Shown in pieces: positions 3,958 through 29,003 of a stretch of 64,000 bases of DNA. The DNA is from a virus. The first letter of the stretch is position 1, and each line of letters opens with the position of its first letter. Both the position numbers and the translations under genes were made by a program. The notes under the pieces were generated by a model. It was not told where the DNA came from. It saw only the letters and a list, made by a program, of their open reading frames with translations, and made no database searches. The stretch covers positions 1 to 64,000 of IMG/VR virus record IMGVR_UViG_3300044213_000090; one strand, 5' to 3'.

Positions 3958-5145
3958 ATGTCTGGTGGCGGTGGAGGAGGCGGAGGCCTTTTTAATAATC
4001 CCTTAGAACTGGCTCTTGTAGCCGGTACGGCTATTGCTGCTCCTTACGCAGCTCCAGCATTGTTTGGTGAAGGCGCCGCACTTGGCGGTCTTGGTATTGC
4101 TGGAGATAGTGCTTTAGCCTCGGGGTTAACTGGCGCTGGAATAGGCGCTTTAGGCGGGGCTGTGGCTGGCTATAATCCGGTACAAACAGGTTTAATGGGC
4201 GGTTTAGGTGGAGCTGCTGCAGGTGCTATGGGAGTTGGTGGTGCTGGTGCAGGCGCTACAGGAAATATGGCTAATGCGGGTTTAGAGTCTGGTATGGCTG
4301 GTACCGCTATGTCTAATCCAGCCGCCACAGCTGCTACCACTTCTCTTATTCCCGGCATTTCAAACACAGCTTTGGGCGTAGGTGCTGGCGGTGTCGGCTT
4401 AGCTGCTTTGATGGCTAACGAACAGAAAAAATATGGCGTTCCTTCTCCTCAAAGTGTGACATATACAGGCGGTAATTTAGCTAAGTTTAAATACGACCCT
4501 AATCAATATACACCCGATGTAGTAACTCCCCCTAACCCTGTATATCAAGCACAGTACGCTCAAGGTGGTCTGACAGCTGGAGGTCCAGCTAACGTCGATT
4601 TTATGGGCGGTGACATGTATCCACAAAGCCAACAGCAGCGTTCATACTATGCCACCCCAACCCAAGCGCCTACAAGTGCCCAAGAAGTAGGTTCTCTATA
4701 CGAGCCTAAGACCAATCCGCTAACCGGCGAAGAAGTAGCTCAAATGGCTGATGGCGGTAGCGTTTCTTATGACCCTAATGCAGAGCTTCAGCAACAGGCT
4801 ATGCTGGCAAGACTATCTGGTTTGCCTTCGTTAACTCCAACAGCTAGCGCTGCTGGTGGCAAGATTGAGTCTTTGGGTTCTTATTCTGATGGGGGTCAAA
4901 TGCTAAAAGGACCCGGTGACGGCATGAGCGATAGTATTCCAGCTAAGATTGGCGCTAATCAACCGGCTCGTCTTGCAGATAATGAGTTTGTTGTTCCGGC
5001 TGATGTTGTCAGCCATTTAGGTAATGGTTCTAGCGATGCTGGTGCTAAAAAGCTTTACTCCATGATGGACAAAGTACGTAAAGCACGTACCGGTAAAAAA
5101 GCACAAGCCCCAAAAATTAACGCAGACAAATACATGCCAGCATGA
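3958..5145 (+). CDS. Gly/Ala-rich virion-associated protein of unknown function
   Basis: 395 aa. It opens with a run of Gly residues and continues as a low-complexity Gly/Ala region to about residue 155, which could be membrane-active or structural. The C-terminal third carries a conserved phage motif: KGPGDGMSDSIPAKI, then ARLADNEFVVPADVVSHLG and KKLYSMMDKVRKARTGK. I know this motif from proteins next to tail and internal-core genes of aquatic podovirus-like phages, where the function is not established. An AAAGGATAG ribosome site precedes the ATG. The stop overlaps the next gene by 4 nt. It occupies a position equivalent to the start of the T7 internal-core gene group. Confidence 0.6.
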   Translation: MSGGGGGGGGLFNNPLELALVAGTAIAAPYAAPALFGEGAALGGLGIAGDSALASGLTGAGIGALGGAVAGYNPVQTGLMGGLGGAAAGAMGVGGAGAGATGNMANAGLESGMAGTAMSNPAATAATTSLIPGISNTALGVGAGGVGLAALMANEQKKYGVPSPQSVTYTGGNLAKFKYDPNQYTPDVVTPPNPVYQAQYAQGGLTAGGPANVDFMGGDMYPQSQQQRSYYATPTQAPTSAQEVGSLYEPKTNPLTGEEVAQMADGGSVSYDPNAELQQQAMLARLSGLPSLTPTASAAGGKIESLGSYSDGGQMLKGPGDGMSDSIPAKIGANQPARLADNEFVVPADVVSHLGNGSSDAGAKKLYSMMDKVRKARTGKKAQAPKINADKYMPA

Positions 5146-5555
5146 CACTTGAGGTAAAACATGTTCCTGTACAGTACGTTCATCAAGCTTGGCCAATGGT
5201 TGAGCGATTCATTGCAGATGCTGTGGAATTCGGTGGAGACGATTATACGTTGGACCAAGTACGCGTTTACGTCTCTTCGGGGCAATGGCTGTTGGTGGTA
5301 GCAGTAGATTTAGAAGGTGTAATAAAAGGTGCAGCGACAGTTAATTTTATTAACTATCCAAACGACAGAATAGCTTTCATTACATTTATAGGCGGTAGGT
5401 TAATCTCTAATAAAGAGACTTTTAAACAATTAAGTGATTTACTAAAGGCTAACGGAGCTACTAAAATACAGGGTGCAGCTAGAGAATCAATCGCCCGTTT
5501 ATGGAGCCGTTATGGGTTTGAAGAGCGTTACAGAATTGTAGAGACAAAGATATGA
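5142..5555 (+). CDS. GNAT-fold-like protein, T7 gp13-like position
   Basis: 137 aa. The order of strands and helices and the C-terminal segment SIARLWSRYGFEERYRIVETKI are typical of GNAT acetyltransferase-fold proteins, where the 'R...GF' portion forms the last strands. The acetyl-CoA binding loop (Q/RxxGxG/A) is not obvious, so it may not be catalytic. In T7-like phages the equivalent internal virion protein A (gp13) has a similar relation to this fold and precedes two larger ejected proteins, as here. ATGA overlaps tie it to both neighbours. A structural or assembly role is inferred from position. Confidence 0.55.
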   Translation: MTLEVKHVPVQYVHQAWPMVERFIADAVEFGGDDYTLDQVRVYVSSGQWLLVVAVDLEGVIKGAATVNFINYPNDRIAFITFIGGRLISNKETFKQLSDLLKANGATKIQGAARESIARLWSRYGFEERYRIVETKI

Positions 5556-6922
5556 AAACAAATTACTCAAGACGTGAGCTATACGCTTTAGGCGAACCCT
5601 TAGGCAATTCTGCTACGTATAAAAAAGCCACAGGCGGCTATGTTCTTGGTGGTGGCGGTGGTGGTTCTCCTCCCCCTCCTCCTGCTTCTCCAACGACTAC
5701 TACCGTTCAAAACACAAGTATTCCAGAATATGCTCAGCCATACGTTGAGACAATGCTTGGCGCTACTCAACAACAATTATTTAATACCTCTACAAACCCA
5801 GACGGCTCTGTACAAATAACTGGTGTTAAACCTTACGTTCCATATAGCCAAAATCCTTCAGACTACATAGCTGGCTTTAGTCCAATGCAACAGCAGGCGT
5901 TCAATACTACTGCAAATATGCAAGTACCCGGACAATACGGCGCAGCTACCGGTATGGCTATGGGCGCTGGTATGCAGTCTATGGGTTTAGCTGGACAAGA
6001 AGCGCAAGCGGGCAACCGTTACAATCAAATGGCAACTAACCCCGGCGCTGTTGGCGCTTTCATGAACCCATATGTGCAGCAATCGTTAGCCCCTCAACTA
6101 CAGCAGCTAGCACAACAAACAGGTATTAATACTGCAGCTGAACAAGGTGCTGCTACTTCTGCTGGTGCTTTTGGTGGCTCACGTGAAGCCTTAATGAATT
6201 CATTGCAGCAACAACAAGGTAACTTAGCCGCGCAACAAGCAATCGGTCAAGGATATAACACCGCATATAACAACGCTATGCAAAACATGCAGTATGGTGC
6301 TGGCTTAGGTTTACAAGGTCAACAAGCTGCTATGCAAGGTATTGGGCAAGGTTTAAGTGCCGCTAATCAATTAGCGGGTATTGGTGGTCAACAATTAGCG
6401 GCTCAACAAGGCATTGCTGCGGCACAAATGCAAGCGGGCACTGCACAACAACAGCAACAACAAAACATTATTAATCAAGCAGTTCAAAACTACGCTACTG
6501 CGCAACAATACCCAGAACAACAGTTGTCGTTTATGAACGCTATGCTACGTGGTCTGCCAACACAACAGATGACAACGCAAGGCTACCAAGCAGCTCCAAG
6601 TTCTTTAAGTCAGCTAACCGGTTTAGGCTTGGCGGGTCTTGGCGCATATAATGTGTTCGGTGGTGCAGGCGGGTCAAGCGGCACTTCGGGTTCAGATATT
6701 AACTTAAAAGAAAACATAGCTAAGTTGTGGCAAGCAGCTAACGGCTTAAATGTTTATGAGTTTGAATATAAGCCTGAGTTTAAAGATCATCCGCTTTGTG
6801 GTCACGGTAGATTCCTTGGCTATATGGCGCATGAAGTTGAGAAGGTTATGCCTGATGCAGTGGTCATTATGGACAACGGCTTTAAAGCTGTTAACTACGA
6901 TATGATTGGGAGGGCTGCATAA
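5552..6922 (+). CDS. Ala/Gln-rich core protein with a C-terminal S74-like chaperone domain
   Basis: 456 aa. Residues 1-50 include a Gly/Pro run. About 90-330 is an Ala/Gln/Gly-rich helical region (QQQ and AAQQ stretches) of the type seen in ejected internal virion proteins (T7 gp14 position). The last 76 residues begin SDINLKENI (Ser381, Lys386), then YEFEYKP and GYMAHEVEKVMPDAV. This is the signature of the intramolecular chaperone / peptidase S74 family, whose Ser and Lys, five residues apart, carry out self-cleavage just before the Ser. Finding it on a core-like protein rather than a fibre is unusual. Cleavage here is a prediction. Confidence 0.65.
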   Translation: MKTNYSRRELYALGEPLGNSATYKKATGGYVLGGGGGGSPPPPPASPTTTTVQNTSIPEYAQPYVETMLGATQQQLFNTSTNPDGSVQITGVKPYVPYSQNPSDYIAGFSPMQQQAFNTTANMQVPGQYGAATGMAMGAGMQSMGLAGQEAQAGNRYNQMATNPGAVGAFMNPYVQQSLAPQLQQLAQQTGINTAAEQGAATSAGAFGGSREALMNSLQQQQGNLAAQQAIGQGYNTAYNNAMQNMQYGAGLGLQGQQAAMQGIGQGLSAANQLAGIGGQQLAAQQGIAAAQMQAGTAQQQQQQNIINQAVQNYATAQQYPEQQLSFMNAMLRGLPTQQMTTQGYQAAPSSLSQLTGLGLAGLGAYNVFGGAGGSSGTSGSDINLKENIAKLWQAANGLNVYEFEYKPEFKDHPLCGHGRFLGYMAHEVEKVMPDAVVIMDNGFKAVNYDMIGRAA

Positions 6923-8757
6923 TGCTCGGCATGGAACAAATGTATCAAATGGCGCTTGATCCGCGCATCTTCCCTGATTCTCGTCTATTGGCTGTTTTAC
7001 AAGGTAAAGATAATTCACTGCCTATGGCTGTCGCCATGTCTGCTAAACAGCAACGGGATAAACTAGAAGCAGCTAGTAAAGCACAACAAGCTCAAATGGG
7101 GGCTAAACAACCTACCGTTCGTGATCAGATGTTGGCTAAAGATTTACCACGTGAAATGCCTCAAGGTGGCATTGATCAACTTCCTGCGCCGAATATGGAG
7201 TCTATGGGTGAACCTGCTATGGGCGCTGCTGGTGGTTTGGTGTCTTTTGCTACCGGTGGCTTTACTGACCCTGACGATGAAGATGAGGATACTGAACAAG
7301 ATGAGCTTGATGCACTAATTGCACGTCAAGGTGATTTGGGTGGACTAGGCGCTGGCATTATGTCAGTAGCAAACCCACAAGCAACCCCATATAGTTCTTT
7401 TACCGGTATTTCTCCAGAAAGCGGACCTACAGGTAAGTTTAGGGATATGGCAGCCGAAGCTGCTAAAAAACATGGCGCATCTTGGGATTTAGTGCAACAC
7501 GTTATGCACAAAGAAACCGGCGGTATGAAAGACCCCGCTAATGCCGTATCTAAAGCTGGCGCTGTTGGGGTAATGCAGTTAATGCCTAAGACAGCAAAAG
7601 AACTTGGTGTTAAAGACTCAACTAATCCAGCAGAGAACATTGATGCAGGTGTGCGTTACATTGCACAGCTGGAAAGCAAATATAAAGACCCTAAGTTAGC
7701 TGCTATGGCGTACAACTGGGGTCCGGGCAACGTAGATAAGTGGCTCAAACACGGCTCAAAAGAAAACGCTGTGCCTAAAGAAACGCGCATGTATGTTGCT
7801 GGCTTGGCTCAAGGCGGTATTGTCGCTTTTAAAAATAAAGGTACAGTAACCGACAACGATATCGCCAACACGGAAGACATGGAAGACTTAGAGTATGGTA
7901 ACGCAATGCGCCCTCAAGCAGACGATGCTGCTACAGAGTTAGGTTTACCTAGTTTAAATGCCCCGTCTTTATTTAAACGTAACAAAATTATCAACCCTCT
8001 TAAACCCGGAGTAAACCCACTTCAGTCCGCGCTTGGCATCCCACAATTAGGTGCGCAATTACCACCACCAGCAGCAGCGCCTGCACAACCTCCAGCAGCA
8101 GCACCAGCTGCAGCACCATCACAAGCTCCGAGTTCACACGATCAAGCAAAAGCAGATCAAGGCGACACGGGACCAACTAGAGATCAGCTAACTTCTTCAT
8201 TCCCATCATCAGACCGCTCACAAAGCATGTTAGATCAATATTTAGCAGGACTCGAGCAATCTAGAAAGCAGGCACCCGGTTTAGCTATGATGGCAGCTGG
8301 TTTAGGTATTGCTGGTCAACGATCTCCGTATGCGTTATCTAATATAGGTGCTGGTGGTTTACAGGGTCTACAATCTTACGAACAGGCTCAGAAACAAGAT
8401 CAAGCGGGCCAAGCTGCTGCCCTATCTGCGCAAGCTGCTTTGGAGAAAAACAAGACACTGCAAGACTATTACAGCACCCTAAAACCAGCTGCTTTAACGC
8501 AGCAACAAAACACAGCGTTTAGTAAACAACTTGGGCAATTTAATAAAACTATTGACGACGAAATTAAAAATAGCTCCAAGTATAAATATAATGATGCCGC
8601 TGCTACCGCCTATAGACAACAAAGATTAAGAGAGCTTATTAGCCAAGATCCTAACATGGCTAAATGGTATACTAACAGCGGTATGTCATTAGAAGCACCC
8701 GGTTTGCAATACGATAAACCAGATGGAAATGTATTGGGCGTAGTAAAACCAAAATAG
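6922..8757 (+). CDS. Virion protein with lytic transglycosylase (SLT) domain
   Basis: 611 aa. An SLT/goose-lysozyme-like domain lies at about residues 170-300: ASWDLVQHVMHKETGG with catalytic Glu198, then AVGVMQLMPKTAKELGV and AMAYNWGPGNVDKWL. Such virion transglycosylases open a local hole in peptidoglycan during genome entry (T7 gp16 is the classic case). It is flanked by an acidic linker (about 112-130) and a long Ala/Pro/Gln-rich stretch (385-410), with a helical C-terminus. Unlike T7, the enzyme is on a separate 611-aa protein and the following giant protein has no SLT motif that I can see. It starts on the last base of the preceding gene. Confidence 0.8.
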   Translation: MLGMEQMYQMALDPRIFPDSRLLAVLQGKDNSLPMAVAMSAKQQRDKLEAASKAQQAQMGAKQPTVRDQMLAKDLPREMPQGGIDQLPAPNMESMGEPAMGAAGGLVSFATGGFTDPDDEDEDTEQDELDALIARQGDLGGLGAGIMSVANPQATPYSSFTGISPESGPTGKFRDMAAEAAKKHGASWDLVQHVMHKETGGMKDPANAVSKAGAVGVMQLMPKTAKELGVKDSTNPAENIDAGVRYIAQLESKYKDPKLAAMAYNWGPGNVDKWLKHGSKENAVPKETRMYVAGLAQGGIVAFKNKGTVTDNDIANTEDMEDLEYGNAMRPQADDAATELGLPSLNAPSLFKRNKIINPLKPGVNPLQSALGIPQLGAQLPPPAAAPAQPPAAAPAAAPSQAPSSHDQAKADQGDTGPTRDQLTSSFPSSDRSQSMLDQYLAGLEQSRKQAPGLAMMAAGLGIAGQRSPYALSNIGAGGLQGLQSYEQAQKQDQAGQAAALSAQAALEKNKTLQDYYSTLKPAALTQQQNTAFSKQLGQFNKTIDDEIKNSSKYKYNDAAATAYRQQRLRELISQDPNMAKWYTNSGMSLEAPGLQYDKPDGNVLGVVKPK

Positions 8758-23481: not shown

Positions 23482-23718
23482 TTATTTTTTATTATCTGAC
23501 ATATTAGCTTTGGGAGATCGCAGTCTTAAGTTGCCGCTTGTTGATTTCCCGCCTGACTTTAAGGGCTTGATATGGTCTATCTGTTTACCCTTGCGGTCGA
23601 TGCCTTCTTTGTCGTACTTACGTCTTGCACGCTGGCGCTCGAGTTGGTCTTCGGTTTCACCGCTTGCTTTTTGTAACTTGTATGCGTGTTTGTAGTCACG
23701 TTTGCCGTTCTTTTGCAT
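23482..23718 (-). CDS. Small HNH endonuclease
   Basis: 78 aa. A basic N-terminus (RQRARRKYDKEG) is followed by the compact HNH core RKGKQIDHIKPLKSGG (about 42-58), with KQIDHI supplying the first metal-site His and GNLRLRSPKANMSD the Asn-containing half. No zinc-binding Cys pairs are seen. Such minimal HNH proteins are found in T7-like and other phages as homing endonucleases, packaging-linked nickases or host-DNA nucleases. It lies between the paralogue triplet and a RecB-like nuclease. Which of these roles it has cannot be decided here. Confidence 0.75.
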   Translation of the reverse strand: MQKNGKRDYKHAYKLQKASGETEDQLERQRARRKYDKEGIDRKGKQIDHIKPLKSGGKSTSGNLRLRSPKANMSDNKK

Positions 23719-23726
23719 AGTCTTTC

Positions 23727-24401
23727 CTAATGTTTAGGGTTATGTTCACAAGACTTAACTTGGCACCATCCGCATAGAGGTGTACTTGTAGGGTTCCAAA
23801 CCCCAGTAGCGTGGCTATTAGCTAGCTTAGCTACTCTTTCTCTATACAACTGCCAATGAAAGTCTTTTTCATCTGCCATCATTTTACTCTTAACCATACT
23901 GTTTTTAACCACGAAAAGCAAAGATGAGTTAACTTGGCGTATGTGGGGGAAGTGAGCGAACACCATCAAAGACATCAGAATTAGCTGGTCTCGGTCAGGG
24001 TATTTATCGTTGCCTGTTTTATAGTCAACTACCCAAGCCTTTAAGCCGTCGTCATCAATGATTACTAAGTCAGCAATACCTCTAGCCCAAACATCATCAG
24101 CGTCAAATGCACAGGGTGTTAAGTCTTCCCTTACACCCATCTCGAGCTCAGGTAGTTTTCTACCCTTTATGCCCATCAATCTTTCCACAATCGGTTCCAT
24201 AAAGGCGTACTCGGGTGGGATTGGTGTGCCGTTTTTAACATAAAGCTCAGCCGCTTCATGCACTTGCTTGCCATACTTAGTATGAACAGTTTCTTGGAAT
24301 GGGTAGTTCTTAAGCACGTTTACTTCATAGAATCTTCTAGCACACCCTTCGTAATTTTTGAGACCGCTGTGTGACCATTTAATTTTTTTGATTTCGCTCA
24401 T
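23727..24401 (-). CDS. PD-(D/E)XK nuclease, Cas4/RecB-like, with possible iron-sulphur site
   Basis: 224 aa. Active-site order: His48 (KQVHEAAE), Asp111 (RGIADLVI), Asp126 and Lys128 (VVDYKTG), and a QLILMSLM helix (QhxxY-like). One Cys at 20 (EGCARRF) and three near the end (210, 213, 218) have the 1+3 arrangement that in Cas4 and AddB holds a 4Fe-4S cluster bracing the nuclease. Phage enzymes of this type are exonucleases in recombination or host-DNA breakdown. It is downstream of the DNA polymerase with one HNH gene between. The start overlaps that gene's stop by 4 nt. Confidence 0.8.
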   Translation of the reverse strand: MSEIKKIKWSHSGLKNYEGCARRFYEVNVLKNYPFQETVHTKYGKQVHEAAELYVKNGTPIPPEYAFMEPIVERLMGIKGRKLPELEMGVREDLTPCAFDADDVWARGIADLVIIDDDGLKAWVVDYKTGNDKYPDRDQLILMSLMVFAHFPHIRQVNSSLLFVVKNSMVKSKMMADEKDFHWQLYRERVAKLANSHATGVWNPTSTPLCGWCQVKSCEHNPKH

Positions 24402-24898
24402 AGGGTTCCTGCTGGATGGAGTATTCTTTTTGCTGTTACGTATGCCGCATGCGCCTCTTCTGCGGTGTTAAAATAGCCTAGATGTTTTGGTTTTCCGTTG
24501 ATTTTTATTTTGGCTATGTATTTATTGTTTAGTTTATGCCAACTAACCCCTAGTAAATGCGACGATTTATTATTTGGTCTGTGCGCACGTTGGTTTTGTC
24601 CGTTTAATATATGATTTGATAACCGCAAATTGCAAAACCTATTGTCTAGGGGGTTGCCATTTATATGGTCAAGCATGTCGGTAGGCCACTTTCCTGTTTC
24701 AAACAGCCATACAAGTTTGTGCGTGAATATCTGTTTTTTATTAACGCCAATTTGTGCTCTACCCAAAGCGTTTATGCGCCCAGCTTTCATACCTTTTCTA
24801 GCCTTTGGGTGTTTGTTATCCACAAGCCAGTAAAACGCACCTTCATCGGGTGCGTACCGTAGTATGCTTTTTAAATATTTTAGCGTCGTCATAAACAT
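24398..24898 (-). CDS. HNH endonuclease with C-terminal AP2-like domain
   Basis: 166 aa (160 aa if the second ATG at 24892 is used). The HNH core is MLDHINGNPLDNRFCNLRLS (about 75-94). A C-terminal AP2-like DNA-binding half reads LLGVSWHKLNNKYIAKIK, then LGYFNTAEEAHAAYVTAK. This HNH-plus-AP2 layout is the commonest free-standing homing endonuclease of phages. It sits directly downstream of the polymerase gene and overlaps the next nuclease start by 4 nt. I see no Shine-Dalgarno site at either start, unlike its neighbours. It probably entered as a mobile gene next to polA. Confidence 0.85.
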   Translation of the reverse strand: MFMTTLKYLKSILRYAPDEGAFYWLVDNKHPKARKGMKAGRINALGRAQIGVNKKQIFTHKLVWLFETGKWPTDMLDHINGNPLDNRFCNLRLSNHILNGQNQRAHRPNNKSSHLLGVSWHKLNNKYIAKIKINGKPKHLGYFNTAEEAHAAYVTAKRILHPAGTL

Positions 24899-24931
24899 AG
24901 TATAAAAGATTAAAGCGTGTTATGCAATCTT

Positions 24932-27769
24932 TTATTTTGCGTCTCCGTATCTTTTAGCATAGCTTGAGTCTGCGTCAAGTGGTATGCCCTTCATATATGG
25001 CGGTTCTTTAATCATCTGCGCATGAACCCATGTTTCCGCTATCTCAGCTTCATTCTCAGGTACAAGCACTACAACTTCATCGTGAACAGTCAACACACAA
25101 GGGTATCTTTCCTGTATCCGTAACATTCCATCAGTCATCACGCAACGGGCAACGGCCTGAACAATGTTTTCTACCAGCTTACCGCCGTATAGTTTTTTAT
25201 TGTCAGACCCATAAGACCACTGCGCTCTGCCTTTATCGTCATATGCAACTGTTAAATTCGGATAACGCAAAGACAAACCACTAGGTAGGATTATACGCTC
25301 TTTTTCAAATTTTAGACACTTGTATTCATAAGTATTTCCCTTATACAAACTGTGCTCTATCAGCGAACCACACAACTCCCAAAAGCTAACGACTGGGTGT
25401 GACTTCTCTCTGTAAATCTCAATAATCTTTTTAGCCGCTAGGCTGTGGACGGCAAGCTCTCTGTCGGTACAAGTGTGCGGTATTTTGTTAAGTAATTCCA
25501 CGTTCCTATCCCAACCCATAAAGTCCGCCGCATCTTGTTGGGTTACTCCAAGTTGTTTAGCAAATGCCTTATCGTATAGAGTAGGCGGTGCGCCGAGAAA
25601 CCCAGTCAATAACTGGGCAGAAAAGCTAGCCCAACCCATACCATAGCCACAGTTATGTACAATCATTGGACCCGCTTCAGTAAGAACCATATATCTATTT
25701 CTTGGACCCGCATAAGCGATGTCGTAAGTCTGCATTTTCTGCTTCAAGAAGTTTGATTGTTTTTCTAAGCTCTTCGACGTCTCGTGCTTTGATTTTTCTT
25801 TTATTTGACATGTTGACGCTCCTAGAACAGAACCGCAAATTGTTTGGTTCATATCCTTTATCATTGTCGATTCTGTCAAGCTGGTACTCGGGGACGTCCC
25901 AACCATCAAGGGTGACAAGATATTTAAGAAATGCAACCCTGTCTTTAATCCATCCCGGATATACGCCGATACCTCTTCCACCGTAGTCCGGATAGATTTT
26001 ACTTTTTGGATTGGTACATCGGACAATAATCGAGCTGATTCTGTCAAGTAGTCTGTCCCTGTGGTTTCTGTCAGGGCAAATGGCGTGATACCCCTTCTGT
26101 TCCCAACGAGTCTCGACAGCTTTTCTTTTAGCACACACGTTACATCTTGTAGTTTTCTGCCTCTTGAAGTTGTGCCTATCAACTCTTCCCTTCCAACCAC
26201 ATGAACAGGCGACGTACGGGTGAAATCCTTTGTTGTGGTTGACCCATCCGACGATGGTAAGCTCGCCTTGTTTATAGCCGATAGGAAACGGAGCGGGTTT
26301 GTACATACCTCTTTCCATTCCTGCCATCCATGTTCCGTCAGGATTTCGTGGTCCTGCGTAGCGCTTATGCCCCATGCTGTCAGTACTTCCTTTTCCCCTT
26401 GAGGAAGCAGTCCTTGATGTTTTACCCATTCTTCACCATCCCATAACAAATCCGTATCCTGAACACTTATTATGGACTTCCATCCGGCATCGGTCAACAC
26501 TTTAGTGTCTGCGCCAAAACAACCTAGCAGCGCCGATTTGGCCGACTGTCTAAGAGTCGGATGTGTTTCCTTACTGAGGTTCGGGATACCGAACATTTGC
26601 GCTCCGAACGCCGAATACGCATCCTGTCCCGAATTGAAAATGTCAAGTAGCGCTTGATAATCTGCGAGGTACGCCAAGACCCTAGGCTCAATTTGGGAGA
26701 GGTCGCAGACCACAAGGGTGTAGCCTTTCGGCGCTTTGATAGCTTTGCGTAAGAAAGAGTTCCGTTTAAGGTTTTGTAGATTAAGCCCCGAGCCCTTGCT
26801 CGCCGACCAACGACCGGTATGCGCTCCGTAATAATTAAGTGGGACAGGGAGCGTACCTCTTTGAGCAATATCTGCGAATCTCTGTGCTCTTGTTCGTTCC
26901 AGCGTAGATTTAACCTTGAGCCTAGCTTCACACAAGAGTGCCACATCCTCATTGTCAGAATTGAGTAGCGCTTGGAAGAGTGCGTCGTTTTTAGCAAATG
27001 CGAAAGTTTCTTTATTGGTCGTTTTGCTAATCTTTTTCGGCGGGCTAACTCCAAGCGTTTCCAAAATAACAGCGAACTTATCGTTACTAGCCAACGACGA
27101 TTCTTCAATGCCAATTTTTTGTAAGAGCGCTTCTCTTTTGGTGCGTTCGTCCTCAATCGCATTTTGTAATATCTCCTTGTCTAGCTCAAGCGTAGGGAAT
27201 ACAAACATCTTGAGCGTCATGTCAATCAATTTTAGCTCGTCGTTAGGGAACCCGCCGTCAACTTCACCCATCAGGTTTCTAAATATCTGAGCGCATAGCT
27301 CTACATCATGTTCGCAGTAGACGGCTAACTCTTGTTCAATTTCATATGTTATCTCGGCCAAGCCGTTAGTGCTATGCACCGCTTGTCCTTTAGGTGGTAG
27401 CCCATAATACTCGGCTAACGTCGCCAAGCTGTTGCCCACTTCCACACCACGTAAAGCACGAGCCATAGAAAGAGAATCAAGAATAAAGGCAGGGCGAGCA
27501 CCATATACCCAACAAAGGATAGAGACATCAAACTGAGCGTTATGTGCAAGGACATTTACATTCTCCCAATCAATCGAGCTAATCCACGCTGGTATATCGT
27601 CATGCGTAACCCAATATGTTAAGTCTTCGTCAAGCCACTTATACCCAACGCCAAACGCTTTAAACATGGGGCTACGTACGTATTGTTCCGTAGTCATCTT
27701 ACTTAGCGTGTAGTCTTTACTGTCCCAACGAGTTTCAAAATCAACTACGAGTGTTCTTCTTCCGTACAT
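24932..27769 (-). CDS. polA: DNA polymerase I (family A) interrupted by an intein
   Basis: 945 aa precursor; removing the 290-residue intein leaves 655 aa, close to T7-type polymerases. The exonuclease domain has VDFET (Asp10, Glu12), AHNAQFD (Asp81) and YCEHD (Tyr151, Asp155). Polymerase motif A is VVCDLSQIEPRVLAYL (Asp356). Motif B starts RQSAK (Arg407, Lys411), is broken after ALLG, and resumes CGYGMGW at 707. Rejoined it gives R-x3-K-x7-YG exactly. Motif C is VHDE (896-898). It is the replicative enzyme and should be inactive until the intein splices. Exonuclease residues are intact, so proofreading is likely. It overlaps the upstream 68-aa gene by 29 nt. Confidence 0.95.
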   Translation of the reverse strand: MYGRRTLVVDFETRWDSKDYTLSKMTTEQYVRSPMFKAFGVGYKWLDEDLTYWVTHDDIPAWISSIDWENVNVLAHNAQFDVSILCWVYGARPAFILDSLSMARALRGVEVGNSLATLAEYYGLPPKGQAVHSTNGLAEITYEIEQELAVYCEHDVELCAQIFRNLMGEVDGGFPNDELKLIDMTLKMFVFPTLELDKEILQNAIEDERTKREALLQKIGIEESSLASNDKFAVILETLGVSPPKKISKTTNKETFAFAKNDALFQALLNSDNEDVALLCEARLKVKSTLERTRAQRFADIAQRGTLPVPLNYYGAHTGRWSASKGSGLNLQNLKRNSFLRKAIKAPKGYTLVVCDLSQIEPRVLAYLADYQALLDIFNSGQDAYSAFGAQMFGIPNLSKETHPTLRQSAKSALLGCFGADTKVLTDAGWKSIISVQDTDLLWDGEEWVKHQGLLPQGEKEVLTAWGISATQDHEILTEHGWQEWKEVCTNPLRFLSAINKASLPSSDGSTTTKDFTRTSPVHVVGREELIGTTSRGRKLQDVTCVLKEKLSRLVGNRRGITPFALTETTGTDYLTESARLLSDVPIQKVKSIRTTVEEVSAYIRDGLKTGLHFLNILSPLMVGTSPSTSLTESTMIKDMNQTICGSVLGASTCQIKEKSKHETSKSLEKQSNFLKQKMQTYDIAYAGPRNRYMVLTEAGPMIVHNCGYGMGWASFSAQLLTGFLGAPPTLYDKAFAKQLGVTQQDAADFMGWDRNVELLNKIPHTCTDRELAVHSLAAKKIIEIYREKSHPVVSFWELCGSLIEHSLYKGNTYEYKCLKFEKERIILPSGLSLRYPNLTVAYDDKGRAQWSYGSDNKKLYGGKLVENIVQAVARCVMTDGMLRIQERYPCVLTVHDEVVVLVPENEAEIAETWVHAQMIKEPPYMKGIPLDADSSYAKRYGDAK
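25652..26521 (-). mobile_element. Intein in polymerase motif B, residues 417-706 of the precursor
   Basis: The splicing motifs are complete. Block A is CFGADTKVLTDAGWKSI with Cys1 (codon 26519-26521). Block B is ISATQDHEILTEHGW with Thr55 and His58 of the intein. The C-terminal blocks are YDIAYAGPRNRYMV and PMIVHN, with the final His-Asn followed by Cys+1 of the extein (codon 25649-25651). Between blocks B and F, about 190 Ser/Thr/Lys-rich residues show no LAGLIDADG, HNH or GIY-YIG motif in this frame. Instead that DNA carries a separate HNH ORF in another frame. Insertion between Gly416 and the next Cys splits the O-helix motif, a highly conserved target. Confidence 0.93.
25695..26429 (-). 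CDS. HNH-type homing endonuclease nested in the intein DNA in another frame
   Basis: 244 aa, same strand as the polymerase but shifted by one nucleotide, and wholly inside the intein. It has a possible zinc ribbon (CSCGWKGR...CNVCAKRK, about 74-102). A nuclease core follows: YPDYGGRGIGVYPGWIKD, then QLDRIDNDKGYEPNNLRFCS and VNMSNKR. This 'GGRGI.V...W...LDRIDN..GY.P.N.R' pattern is that of many phage homing endonucleases. A coiled-coil tail (ARDVEELRKTIKLLEAENAD) ends it. The ATG at 26429 has a weak upstream site; Met19 at 26375 has AAAAGGAAG about 10 nt upstream and may be the true start. It probably drives homing of the intein in trans-frame. Confidence 0.85.
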   Translation of the reverse strand: MGKTSRTASSRGKGSTDSMGHKRYAGPRNPDGTWMAGMERGMYKPAPFPIGYKQGELTIVGWVNHNKGFHPYVACSCGWKGRVDRHNFKRQKTTRCNVCAKRKAVETRWEQKGYHAICPDRNHRDRLLDRISSIIVRCTNPKSKIYPDYGGRGIGVYPGWIKDRVAFLKYLVTLDGWDVPEYQLDRIDNDKGYEPNNLRFCSRSVNMSNKRKIKARDVEELRKTIKLLEAENADLRHRLCGSKK

Positions 27770-27947
27770 TCTTCGCTTTCGTTTTTGTTTTAGCCTGTGC
27801 TTCTTTTTTGCACTGTTCTATATATTGTTTGAGGATTGCCAGCACGCCCTCTTGAACTAGAAAGCCTAGCCCTTCTGCATCAAACCTTACTAAGCAGTCG
27901 GCAGAGCCGTCAGGATTCTCTGTGGTTTTAATAATTGTGATGTTCAT
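27741..27947 (-). CDS. Small conserved phage protein ahead of the polymerase
   Basis: 68 aa: MNITIIKTTENPDGSADCLV, then EGLGFLVQEGVLAILKQYIE and a Lys-rich tail (KTKTKAKNVRKKN). The 'NIT(I/V).K..EN.DGSA...V.FD.EG..FLVQ.G' pattern is one I associate with small proteins upstream of replication genes in phages. Function unknown. Its 3' end overlaps the polymerase start by 29 nt, and its start overlaps the 39-aa gene by 4 nt, so it is part of a tightly coupled string. Confidence 0.7.
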   Translation of the reverse strand: MNITIIKTTENPDGSADCLVRFDAEGLGFLVQEGVLAILKQYIEQCKKEAQAKTKTKAKNVRKKNTRS

Positions 27948-28063
27948 TCGTTTCTCCAGTAAACATTGTTAGGGTTAGCTAGCATGGACTTAACTAACTC
28001 TTCTGCATTTTTAAACCATTGAATCACTTTTAGGCCGTCATCCTGAAAAATAGTAAAGCTCAT
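27944..28063 (-). CDS. 39-aa early protein
   Basis: A short ORF reading MSFTIFQDDGLKVIQWFKNA then EELVKSMLANPNNVYWRNE. It overlaps the stop of the upstream gene and the start of the downstream gene by 4 nt each (ATGA junctions), exactly as its longer neighbours do. A GGGGAGAGAA ribosome site lies just upstream of the ATG. The frame fills what would otherwise be a 112-nt gap. Function unknown. Confidence 0.7.
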   Translation of the reverse strand: MSFTIFQDDGLKVIQWFKNAEELVKSMLANPNNVYWRNE

Positions 28064-28695
28064 TTCTCTCCCCTTACTTTAGCTTCTATTGCCCTAGCAA
28101 AATTCAAAACCATACTTCTACCCCAAAAGAAAACTTGTTCAGTTAGATTTTCTCCACCGCTTATTTCCATAATTTCCTCATCACTTAATGGAGATACTTC
28201 GTGCTTTGTTTGTGGTGTGGTGTAGAGTGGTTCTGCATCTTTAATTCGTGTTTCCCAATCTGACCCACTACCGCTATCAATGTATTTGTAGCCATAACCA
28301 TCAAAGTCATAGCGCATTGCTATTGGTTCATTTTGATTTTCTTGCAGTATTTCAACGCATTTATGGTGTGCGTTCTTGTGTAGATTTAATTGCTTTTCCA
28401 ACTCCGCTATTTTGTCTGCTTGCGTCTTGAAAAGAATCGACATTGTTTTGACTCTTTCTTCTTGAGCCTTGTAAAGTGCGTTCATACTTTCAAGCCCGTC
28501 AAATCCATCTTTCATACATTTCTCGTATGTAGTGGATAACGCTACAATCTGCGACTCCAACTCCGCTATTCTGTCTGCTTGTTGGCGAAGCATTACCTTT
28601 GCATCTGCCACAGTAGAACGAATATGTCCCATAGCGTGTGCTTCAGCCTTATCTTCAACAATCTGTAATTCATCTGCTAATTCTAAAGCGTTCAT
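28060..28695 (-). CDS. Coiled-coil early protein, Ea22-like family candidate
   Basis: 211 aa from the ATG at 28695, chosen because it forms an ATGA overlap with the upstream stop (an upstream TTG/GTG-type start would add four residues). It has two coiled-coil stretches with ADRIAELESQ and ADKIAELEKQL. A beta-rich part (MRYDFDGYGYKYIDSG) is followed by DAEPLYTTP and a C-terminal helix (EEIMEI...ARAIEAKVRGE). The 'PLYTTPQ' motif after a coiled coil is typical of small phage early proteins of unknown function (Ea22/DUF551-like). The ADRI(A/V)ELE motif is shared with the next gene. Confidence 0.65.
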   Translation of the reverse strand: MNALELADELQIVEDKAEAHAMGHIRSTVADAKVMLRQQADRIAELESQIVALSTTYEKCMKDGFDGLESMNALYKAQEERVKTMSILFKTQADKIAELEKQLNLHKNAHHKCVEILQENQNEPIAMRYDFDGYGYKYIDSGSGSDWETRIKDAEPLYTTPQTKHEVSPLSDEEIMEISGGENLTEQVFFWGRSMVLNFARAIEAKVRGEK

Positions 28696-29003
28696 ACAAT
28701 CTCCCAATCAATATCACCATCATCAGACAATTTTGTAATACGCACCGTTACATTTGGTAATCGTATTGCCCTATGAATTTCAATTTCTTGACCCAATTCA
28801 ATATCAAATGCGTTTTGGTATTCCTCAAGTACAACATCCGAAATAGAGTAGTAAGAAAACTCAGGGTCATTATCATTCCAAAATAAATTAGGCTCTAATT
28901 GTTTCTCAAGTTCCACTATTCTGTCTGCTTGTTTGTCTAGCTTTTGAAGTGCGTAGTGGTGGGTATCCCGTAGCTTCTCGTATTCTTCTTTCCAGTCTTT
29001 CAA
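28692..29003 (-). CDS. Early protein with coiled-coil start, TTG start codon
   Basis: 103 aa. The N-terminal helix contains LDKQADRIVELEKQLEP, related to the ADRIAELE segments of the downstream gene, which suggests shared ancestry or module exchange. The remainder is a beta-rich domain (VTVRITKLSDDGDIDWEIV at the end). The start codon is TTG, with a GGAGG site 8 nt upstream, and it overlaps the preceding stop (TTGA). Function unknown. Confidence 0.6.
   Translation of the reverse strand: MKDWKEEYEKLRDTHHYALQKLDKQADRIVELEKQLEPNLFWNDNDPEFSYYSISDVVLEEYQNAFDIELGQEIEIHRAIRLPNVTVRITKLSDDGDIDWEIV

Follow-up and report, generated by a model that had tools for sequence, protein, structure and literature searches.

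The DNA analysed here, a 64-kb stretch (the window) of a 64.5-kb phage record (IMG/VR IMGVR_UViG_3300044213_000090), carries a family-A DNA polymerase gene, polA, within which a predicted intein and a predicted HNH-family endonuclease are encoded on one strand, one nucleotide out of register with each other (Table 1). The polA open reading frame (ORF), 945 codons long with the intein included, crosses the insert without a single stop; the insertion point, RQSAKSALLG^CGYGMGW, lies in the polymerase O-helix region, and a junction query retrieved 80 intein-less polA relatives whose uninterrupted junctions support the intein boundaries. An earlier reading of the window (hereafter the original prediction) had described an intein that keeps the polA frame open and has all splicing motifs, and both its coordinates and its motifs proved correct: C1, block A (CFGADTKVLTDAGW), block B (T55..H58), block F (TYDIAYAGPRNRY), a C-terminal HN and a +1 Cys. 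In the AlphaFold model of the intein frame, residues 1-90 and 258-290 are confident and residues 93-248 mostly have a predicted local distance difference test score (pLDDT) below 50. Foldseek matched this model to the DnaB, gp41-1 and RecA inteins in the PDB (best E 2.9e-4), and a profile search matched the intein to the RecA intein PI-MtuI. As had been claimed, the intein frame shows no endonuclease motif from block B to block F, and this part of it is predicted to be disordered. By sequence criteria and by its predicted Hint fold the insert is an intein, one that would be expected to leave the polymerase by protein splicing.

The second ORF, described in the original prediction as 244 codons long, with a zinc ribbon and the motif GGRGIGVYPGW, was equally borne out by database searches. 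Its protein, which carries C75/C77/C96/C99, GGRGIGVYPGW and LDRIDNDKGYEPNNLRF, has clear homologues among the HNH endonucleases of PHROG (phrog_374 best, E = 2.8e-29; also PHROGs 3377 and 2081), and its structural model matches phage HNH proteins among the predicted folds of BFVD (E about 1e-10 to 1e-12). Residues D185-R186, N197 and N206 are invariant in 77 of 77 HNH-frame sequences; no His is. AlphaFold confidence is mostly above 90 across residues 45-240 and below 50 for residues 1-22, and the first 45 or so residues, which are block A-B codons of the intein read in the other frame, are disordered and unconstrained. By homology the protein belongs to the HNH endonuclease family; the original description of a complete HNH endonuclease holds to that extent, and fails for these first residues and for the canonical His, to which we return below. 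The best BFVD match is an uncharacterised 247-aa protein of Salmonella phage LPSE1 (KY379853), from which it appears that the hidden HNH is called as a gene in that phage.

Table 1. Features of the polA locus and its insert, in window coordinates
Feature	Position	Strand	Basis and remarks
Phage family-A DNA polymerase gene (polA), intein carrier	24932-27769	-	PF00476 E=3.6e-25; PHROG 17; frame open across intein
Predicted intein, 290 codons, polA frame, C1 ... VHN, +1 Cys	25652-26521	-	polA residues 417-706
N-terminal splicing half, blocks A+B, intein residues 1-90	26252-26521	-	Predicted Hint beta-fold, pLDDT 90-98; intein-frame dN/dS 0.30
C-terminal splicing half, blocks F+G, intein residues 258-290	25652-25750	-	pLDDT about 97; intein-frame dN/dS 0.23
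Out-of-frame ORF, 244 aa, zinc-ribbon/HNH-family endonuclease (predicted)	25695-26429	-	Frame +2 (= -1) relative to intein; PHROG HNH
HNH core segment; same DNA in intein frame is a stop-free disordered Ser/Thr/Lys-rich linker	25772-26291	-	dN/dS, stop counts, pLDDT <50 in intein frame
Zinc-ribbon cysteines C75, C77, C96, C99 of HNH-frame protein	26133-26207	-	Invariant in 77 sequences
Nuclease motif LDRIDNDKGYEPNNLRF, D185/R186/N197 invariant	25830-25880	-	HNH alignment
WDGEEW codons of intein motif, also Shine-Dalgarno-like purine run (GGTGAAGA) and HNH-ORF ATG (26427-26429)	26426-26443	-	Conserved start position

We searched viral contigs, bacterial genomes and phage records and sorted the several hundred loci obtained by frame, using hidden Markov models of the intein N-block, the C-block and the HNH core. 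Inteins arranged as in the window (class I) comprise 111 unique sequences in 92 clusters, drawn from independent samples and isolates, and all have the HNH in the +2 (= -1) frame. Each begins with C1, ends in Asn (nearly always as HN), is followed by Cys or Ser at +1 and has no intein-frame stop; C1, T55, H58 and N290 are invariant, and H289 nearly so. Among these relatives the HNH frame is kept open rather than broken by frequent stops, and in no fetched locus did we find the HNH in frame with the intein, an absence that applies to this intein family, from which the survey was seeded, and not to phage inteins generally. Neither in class I nor in the class II introduced below is there an in-frame endonuclease between blocks B and F of the kind that marks a bifunctional intein. 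Identity to the window intein in the intein frame drops to 24% among relatives, which suggests that the split-frame arrangement is old; the composite of intein and HNH occurs in other polymerase lineages too, and the unit also lies in a helicase-like gene (L011, flank LTGTPLPNRPREAYVLARNL).

Chance does not readily produce such openness in either direction. In 200 synonymous shuffles of the window intein's codons the HNH frame acquired 6.2 stops on average and was never open. Over the 92 HNH cores, synonymous shuffling of the HNH codons, which preserves both the protein and the codon usage, predicts 273 intein-frame stops, and none is observed; the third frame, as a control, has 1205 stops against 1169 expected. 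The missing 273 argue that the insert is translated through, and hence that it is an intein and not an intron. Two longer inteins (364 aa; L089 2388-3479 and L204 4001-5092) have an apparently duplicated zinc-ribbon region in the HNH frame, an open intein frame, and HNH-frame stops near the usual start.

Although the two ORFs overlap, their functional domains appear to lie side by side. We compared codon positions in 29 independent pairs of relatives and estimated ratios of nonsynonymous to synonymous substitution rates (dN/dS) in each frame. Over the first 215 nucleotides (nt) of the intein, as over its last 90, variation is highest at intein third positions, with dN/dS of 0.30 and 0.23, respectively, in the intein frame and of 1.02 and 0.83 in the HNH frame; over the HNH core it is highest at HNH third (= intein second) positions, and the values are 0.25 in the HNH frame and 0.91 in the intein frame. 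AlphaFold confidence swaps between the frames in the same way, low for intein residues 93-248 and high for HNH residues 45-240. Together, the segment-wise dN/dS and the mirrored models indicate that each stretch is selected in one frame while the other is only kept open, contrary to the original prediction, which had both sequences constrained. A true overprinted pair, with dual constraint on the same bases, was considered and rejected: dN/dS in the non-working frame is near 1, and stop avoidance is all that the frames share. On this evidence the in-frame linker is a by-product, disordered and nearly neutral, that stays free of stops.

The frame statistics also point to a probable start for the nuclease. 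Across 91 clusters, HNH-frame stops number 150 at intein nt 6-90, six at nt 99-117 and none at nt 118-230; synonymous shuffling predicts 96 for nt 99-230, the interval that holds the six. At nt 93 there is a start codon in 86 of the 91 (ATG 53, GTG 26, TTG 7), an ATG occurs at nt 99 in 31, and 85 have an open start at 93/99. Both positions fall inside the codons of the conserved WDGEEW(V) motif, where a Shine-Dalgarno (SD)-like run averages -7.7 kcal/mol, compared with -2.3 elsewhere. The nuclease start is thus most likely internal, at intein nt 93/99.

Patchy presence in similar host genes and lateral transfer, the marks of a mobile element, are both seen. Among intein-less polA genes, amino-acid identity reaches 87% over the full length (L316, 655 aa) and 100% over the 72-aa junction (L310), while HNH cores 91-93% identical sit in polymerases that are only about 51% identical (L107 and L109 versus L108). 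At the same type of site, L202 carries a natural mini-intein, 141 aa and intact, from which the HNH core has been deleted with HNH-end remnants still legible; a Ruminococcus phage (L479) has another mini-intein without an HNH. Intein-less alleles, lateral transfer and HNH-deleted mini-inteins form the pattern expected of a homing cycle, and the near-identical intein-less polA genes and the HNH-deleted mini-intein fit one in which the nuclease would cleave and the element would home. In L406 (3922-4326), L440 (3001-3456) and L479 (from 2001), natural mini-inteins measure about 135-152 aa and have no detectable HNH.

The design is found a second time, in the other shifted frame. In class II, about 40 unique inteins in 35 clusters, the HNH belongs to a different lineage and is read in the +1 frame; most of these inteins occupy a downstream polymerase site (YGGKL^C) or helicase-like genes. 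The intein frame of class II has no stops where 167 are expected, and the class includes Hamiltonella phage APSE-1 (P45/P46). Both classes share a single polymerase gene in L389, L399, L402, L405, L426 and L463. Judged from these sequences, the split-frame design is a real, recurring way to build a mobile element. In L015, two inteins of one polymerase gene (4831-5688 and 6163-7080) have their HNHs in different shifted frames (+2, +1). The inteins of L477 (Gardnerella phage AB1) and L478 (Streptococcus phage Javan255) occupy the upstream class I-type site (RQKGKIAELA^C); their HNH scores lower, lies in the +1 frame and is open for 253 codons, and they are probably a third arrangement.

The element is very probably a mobile intein with an out-of-frame gene for its homing endonuclease; the original proposal, that splicing and homing-type functions occupy two overlapping frames, is supported by the homologues and by the conservation of the arrangement. 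The statistics of the sequences show its conservation, its frame, the avoidance of stops, the mode of selection, the start region and the pattern of mobility; splicing, internal initiation, cleavage and homing are inferred and might proceed as follows. An HNH-family gene lies between blocks B and F, the ordinary site of an in-frame endonuclease, but in the -1 (+2) frame. Ribosomes on the polA message would go straight through the intein. Its splicing halves (residues 1-90 and 258-290) would form a Hint domain, with no more than a floppy linker from the nuclease DNA between the halves, and excision would leave an active polymerase. Other ribosomes would begin inside the intein at nt 93 or 99, the WDGEEW(V) codons doubling as SD-like sequence and start codon, and would make the nuclease as a separate protein; this would cut the intein-less polA site, and repair would copy the element in.

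Several observations weigh against this account. If, as we assume, D185-R186 aligns to an HNH_3-type motif, then Arg stands at the usual first catalytic His in all 77 HNH-frame sequences (D-R, not canonical D-H), none of which has the canonical H-N-H residues, and the nuclease chemistry is accordingly uncertain. No Pfam model matches the window HNH, nor does a consistent HNH model emerge over the 77 members; the HNH structural model has no significant fold match in the PDB, where a profile search returned only unrelated zinc-ribbon-like chains. Six of the 91 relatives lack an open 93/99 start, and synonymous versions of the start region already reach -7.0 kcal/mol against the observed -7.7, so that the ribosome site would be largely a by-product of the protein motif; selection of the SD beyond that motif, which we also considered, is favoured only faintly by this difference. 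Pfam gave no consistent intein model over 80 intein members either, and annotation based on it would therefore miss both intein and nuclease.

The D-R pair and the want of an invariant histidine could mean that the HNH-frame protein is expressed but is catalytically altered or has another role, and is not the homing enzyme of the intein. We consider this improbable: the HNH is tightly co-inherited with the intein and under strong purifying selection (dN/dS 0.25), intein-less alleles and lateral transfer are found, and its relatives include phage proteins annotated as HNH endonucleases. It is also quite improbable that the nuclease arises by programmed frameshifting from the intein frame, fused to the intein N-terminus. 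A single -1 shift would join the two frames, and phage genes do use frameshifts; yet the HNH frame has almost no stops from nt 93 and none at all from nt 118, even though its first 45 or so residues are neutral (dN/dS 1.02), an early openness that a later frameshift would not need, and a start codon is conserved at nt 93/99. Internal initiation would fit these data better. A group I intron with an ordinary intron-encoded HNH, the polA frame being open by accident, is strongly disfavoured. Introns commonly carry independent HNH ORFs, and the annotators of Sodalis phage SO-1 wrote of a 'type I self-splicing intron', but a search for a group I RNA core found no Rfam match at E <= 1 in 24000-28800, the polA frame is under strong purifying selection at both ends of the insert, C1, TxxH, HN and +1 Cys/Ser are conserved with a predicted Hint fold, and the intein-frame stop deficit stands. 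It is scarcely credible that the ORF was produced by paired frameshifts in sequencing or assembly, or by chance. All 111 unique sequences, drawn from independent samples and isolates, share one offset, which refutes both ideas; the PHROG homology also speaks against them, and we found nothing in support of either.

Two further ORFs lie nearby on the minus strand. Directly downstream of polA is a free-standing HNH_3/AP2-type homing endonuclease ORF (24398-24898; phrog_99, E=1.2e-54), and a 78-aa ORF (23482-23718), a member of a PHROG of unknown function, has a weak Pfam HNH match (E=5e-4).

Canonical bifunctional inteins keep the nuclease, usually LAGLIDADG, in frame and as part of the excised intein. 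Those such as PI-SceI and the RecA intein PI-MtuI resemble the polA element in having a Hint domain with nuclease DNA between blocks B and F. Group I introns that house an HNH ORF (for example I-PfoP3I, PMC3428280) resemble it in lying in a phage polymerase gene and in having a separately translated nuclease, as we propose here, but they splice by RNA, whereas the polA insert is translated and has intein motifs. ShiLan-type HNH genes lie out of frame in mycobacteriophage DNA methylase insertions in which the authors found neither intein nor intron and no intein splicing motifs, and which, in their view, remain in the protein (Arsenault, Gosselin & Gogarten 2025, PMC11855218). There, too, an HNH is hidden out of frame, the host gene is left open and the distribution is patchy and homing-like (PMC11855218); by contrast, the polA element is an intein with all motifs and a predicted Hint fold, has a conserved SD-like start and resides in a different host gene.

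Members of the family have already been deposited under other descriptions. The APSE-1 record (AF157835) lists P45 and P46 as overlapping coding sequences (CDSs), P46 being unnamed in GenBank and an HNH endonuclease in RefSeq, and the SO-1 record does likewise for gp38 and gp39, with gp39 bearing the intron note; SO-1 belongs to class I (+2 frame), as does the window, and APSE-1 to class II (+1 frame). These overlaps are annotation only, as against the reading of an intein-plus-HNH class offered here. The 'intein-containing DNA polymerase' of Jerseyvirus (for example, Salmonella phages vB_SenS-Ent1 and SETP3) has the same intein family with the same +2 HNH, but the Ent1 record lists intein 'splicing domains' only, and the HNH ORF is unannotated in both. 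To the question in the original prediction, whether the arrangement is already described, the answer is mixed: overlapping CDSs had been deposited (APSE-1, SO-1), and a 2025 publication describes an HNH out of frame in an insertion that is not an intein. Our literature search found no account of inteins with an out-of-frame endonuclease, bioRxiv 2025.01.02.630785 (actinobacteriophage inteins of non-canonical architecture, from the ShiLan group) and the APSE-1 (1999) paper lying outside its coverage. We think it an evenly balanced question whether phage inteins with an out-of-frame HNH constitute a widespread, convergently built class of homing element, not described as such, that would comprise at least two HNH lineages, use both shifted frames and several insertion sites, and occur in the phages of many hosts. 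In such a class, ribosomes starting within a conserved motif of the intein itself would uncouple nuclease synthesis from splicing.

The locus offers a clean case of overlapping ORFs arising without dual constraint, and suggests that splicing domains can accommodate about 160 aa of arbitrary, disordered linker. The phage-polymerase 'mini-inteins' of current annotation may be complete homing elements whose nuclease is missed by gene callers. Because the same element occurs in culturable phages—Salmonella Jerseyvirus, Shigella EP23, Caulobacter RW and Shewanella SFCi1—these proposals are directly testable. In the textbook intein, an in-frame nuclease must fold together with the splicing domain; in the polA insert, splicing would belong to one frame and mobility to another, and the recurrence of this design in both shifted frames argues that uncoupling splicing from the nuclease is favoured.

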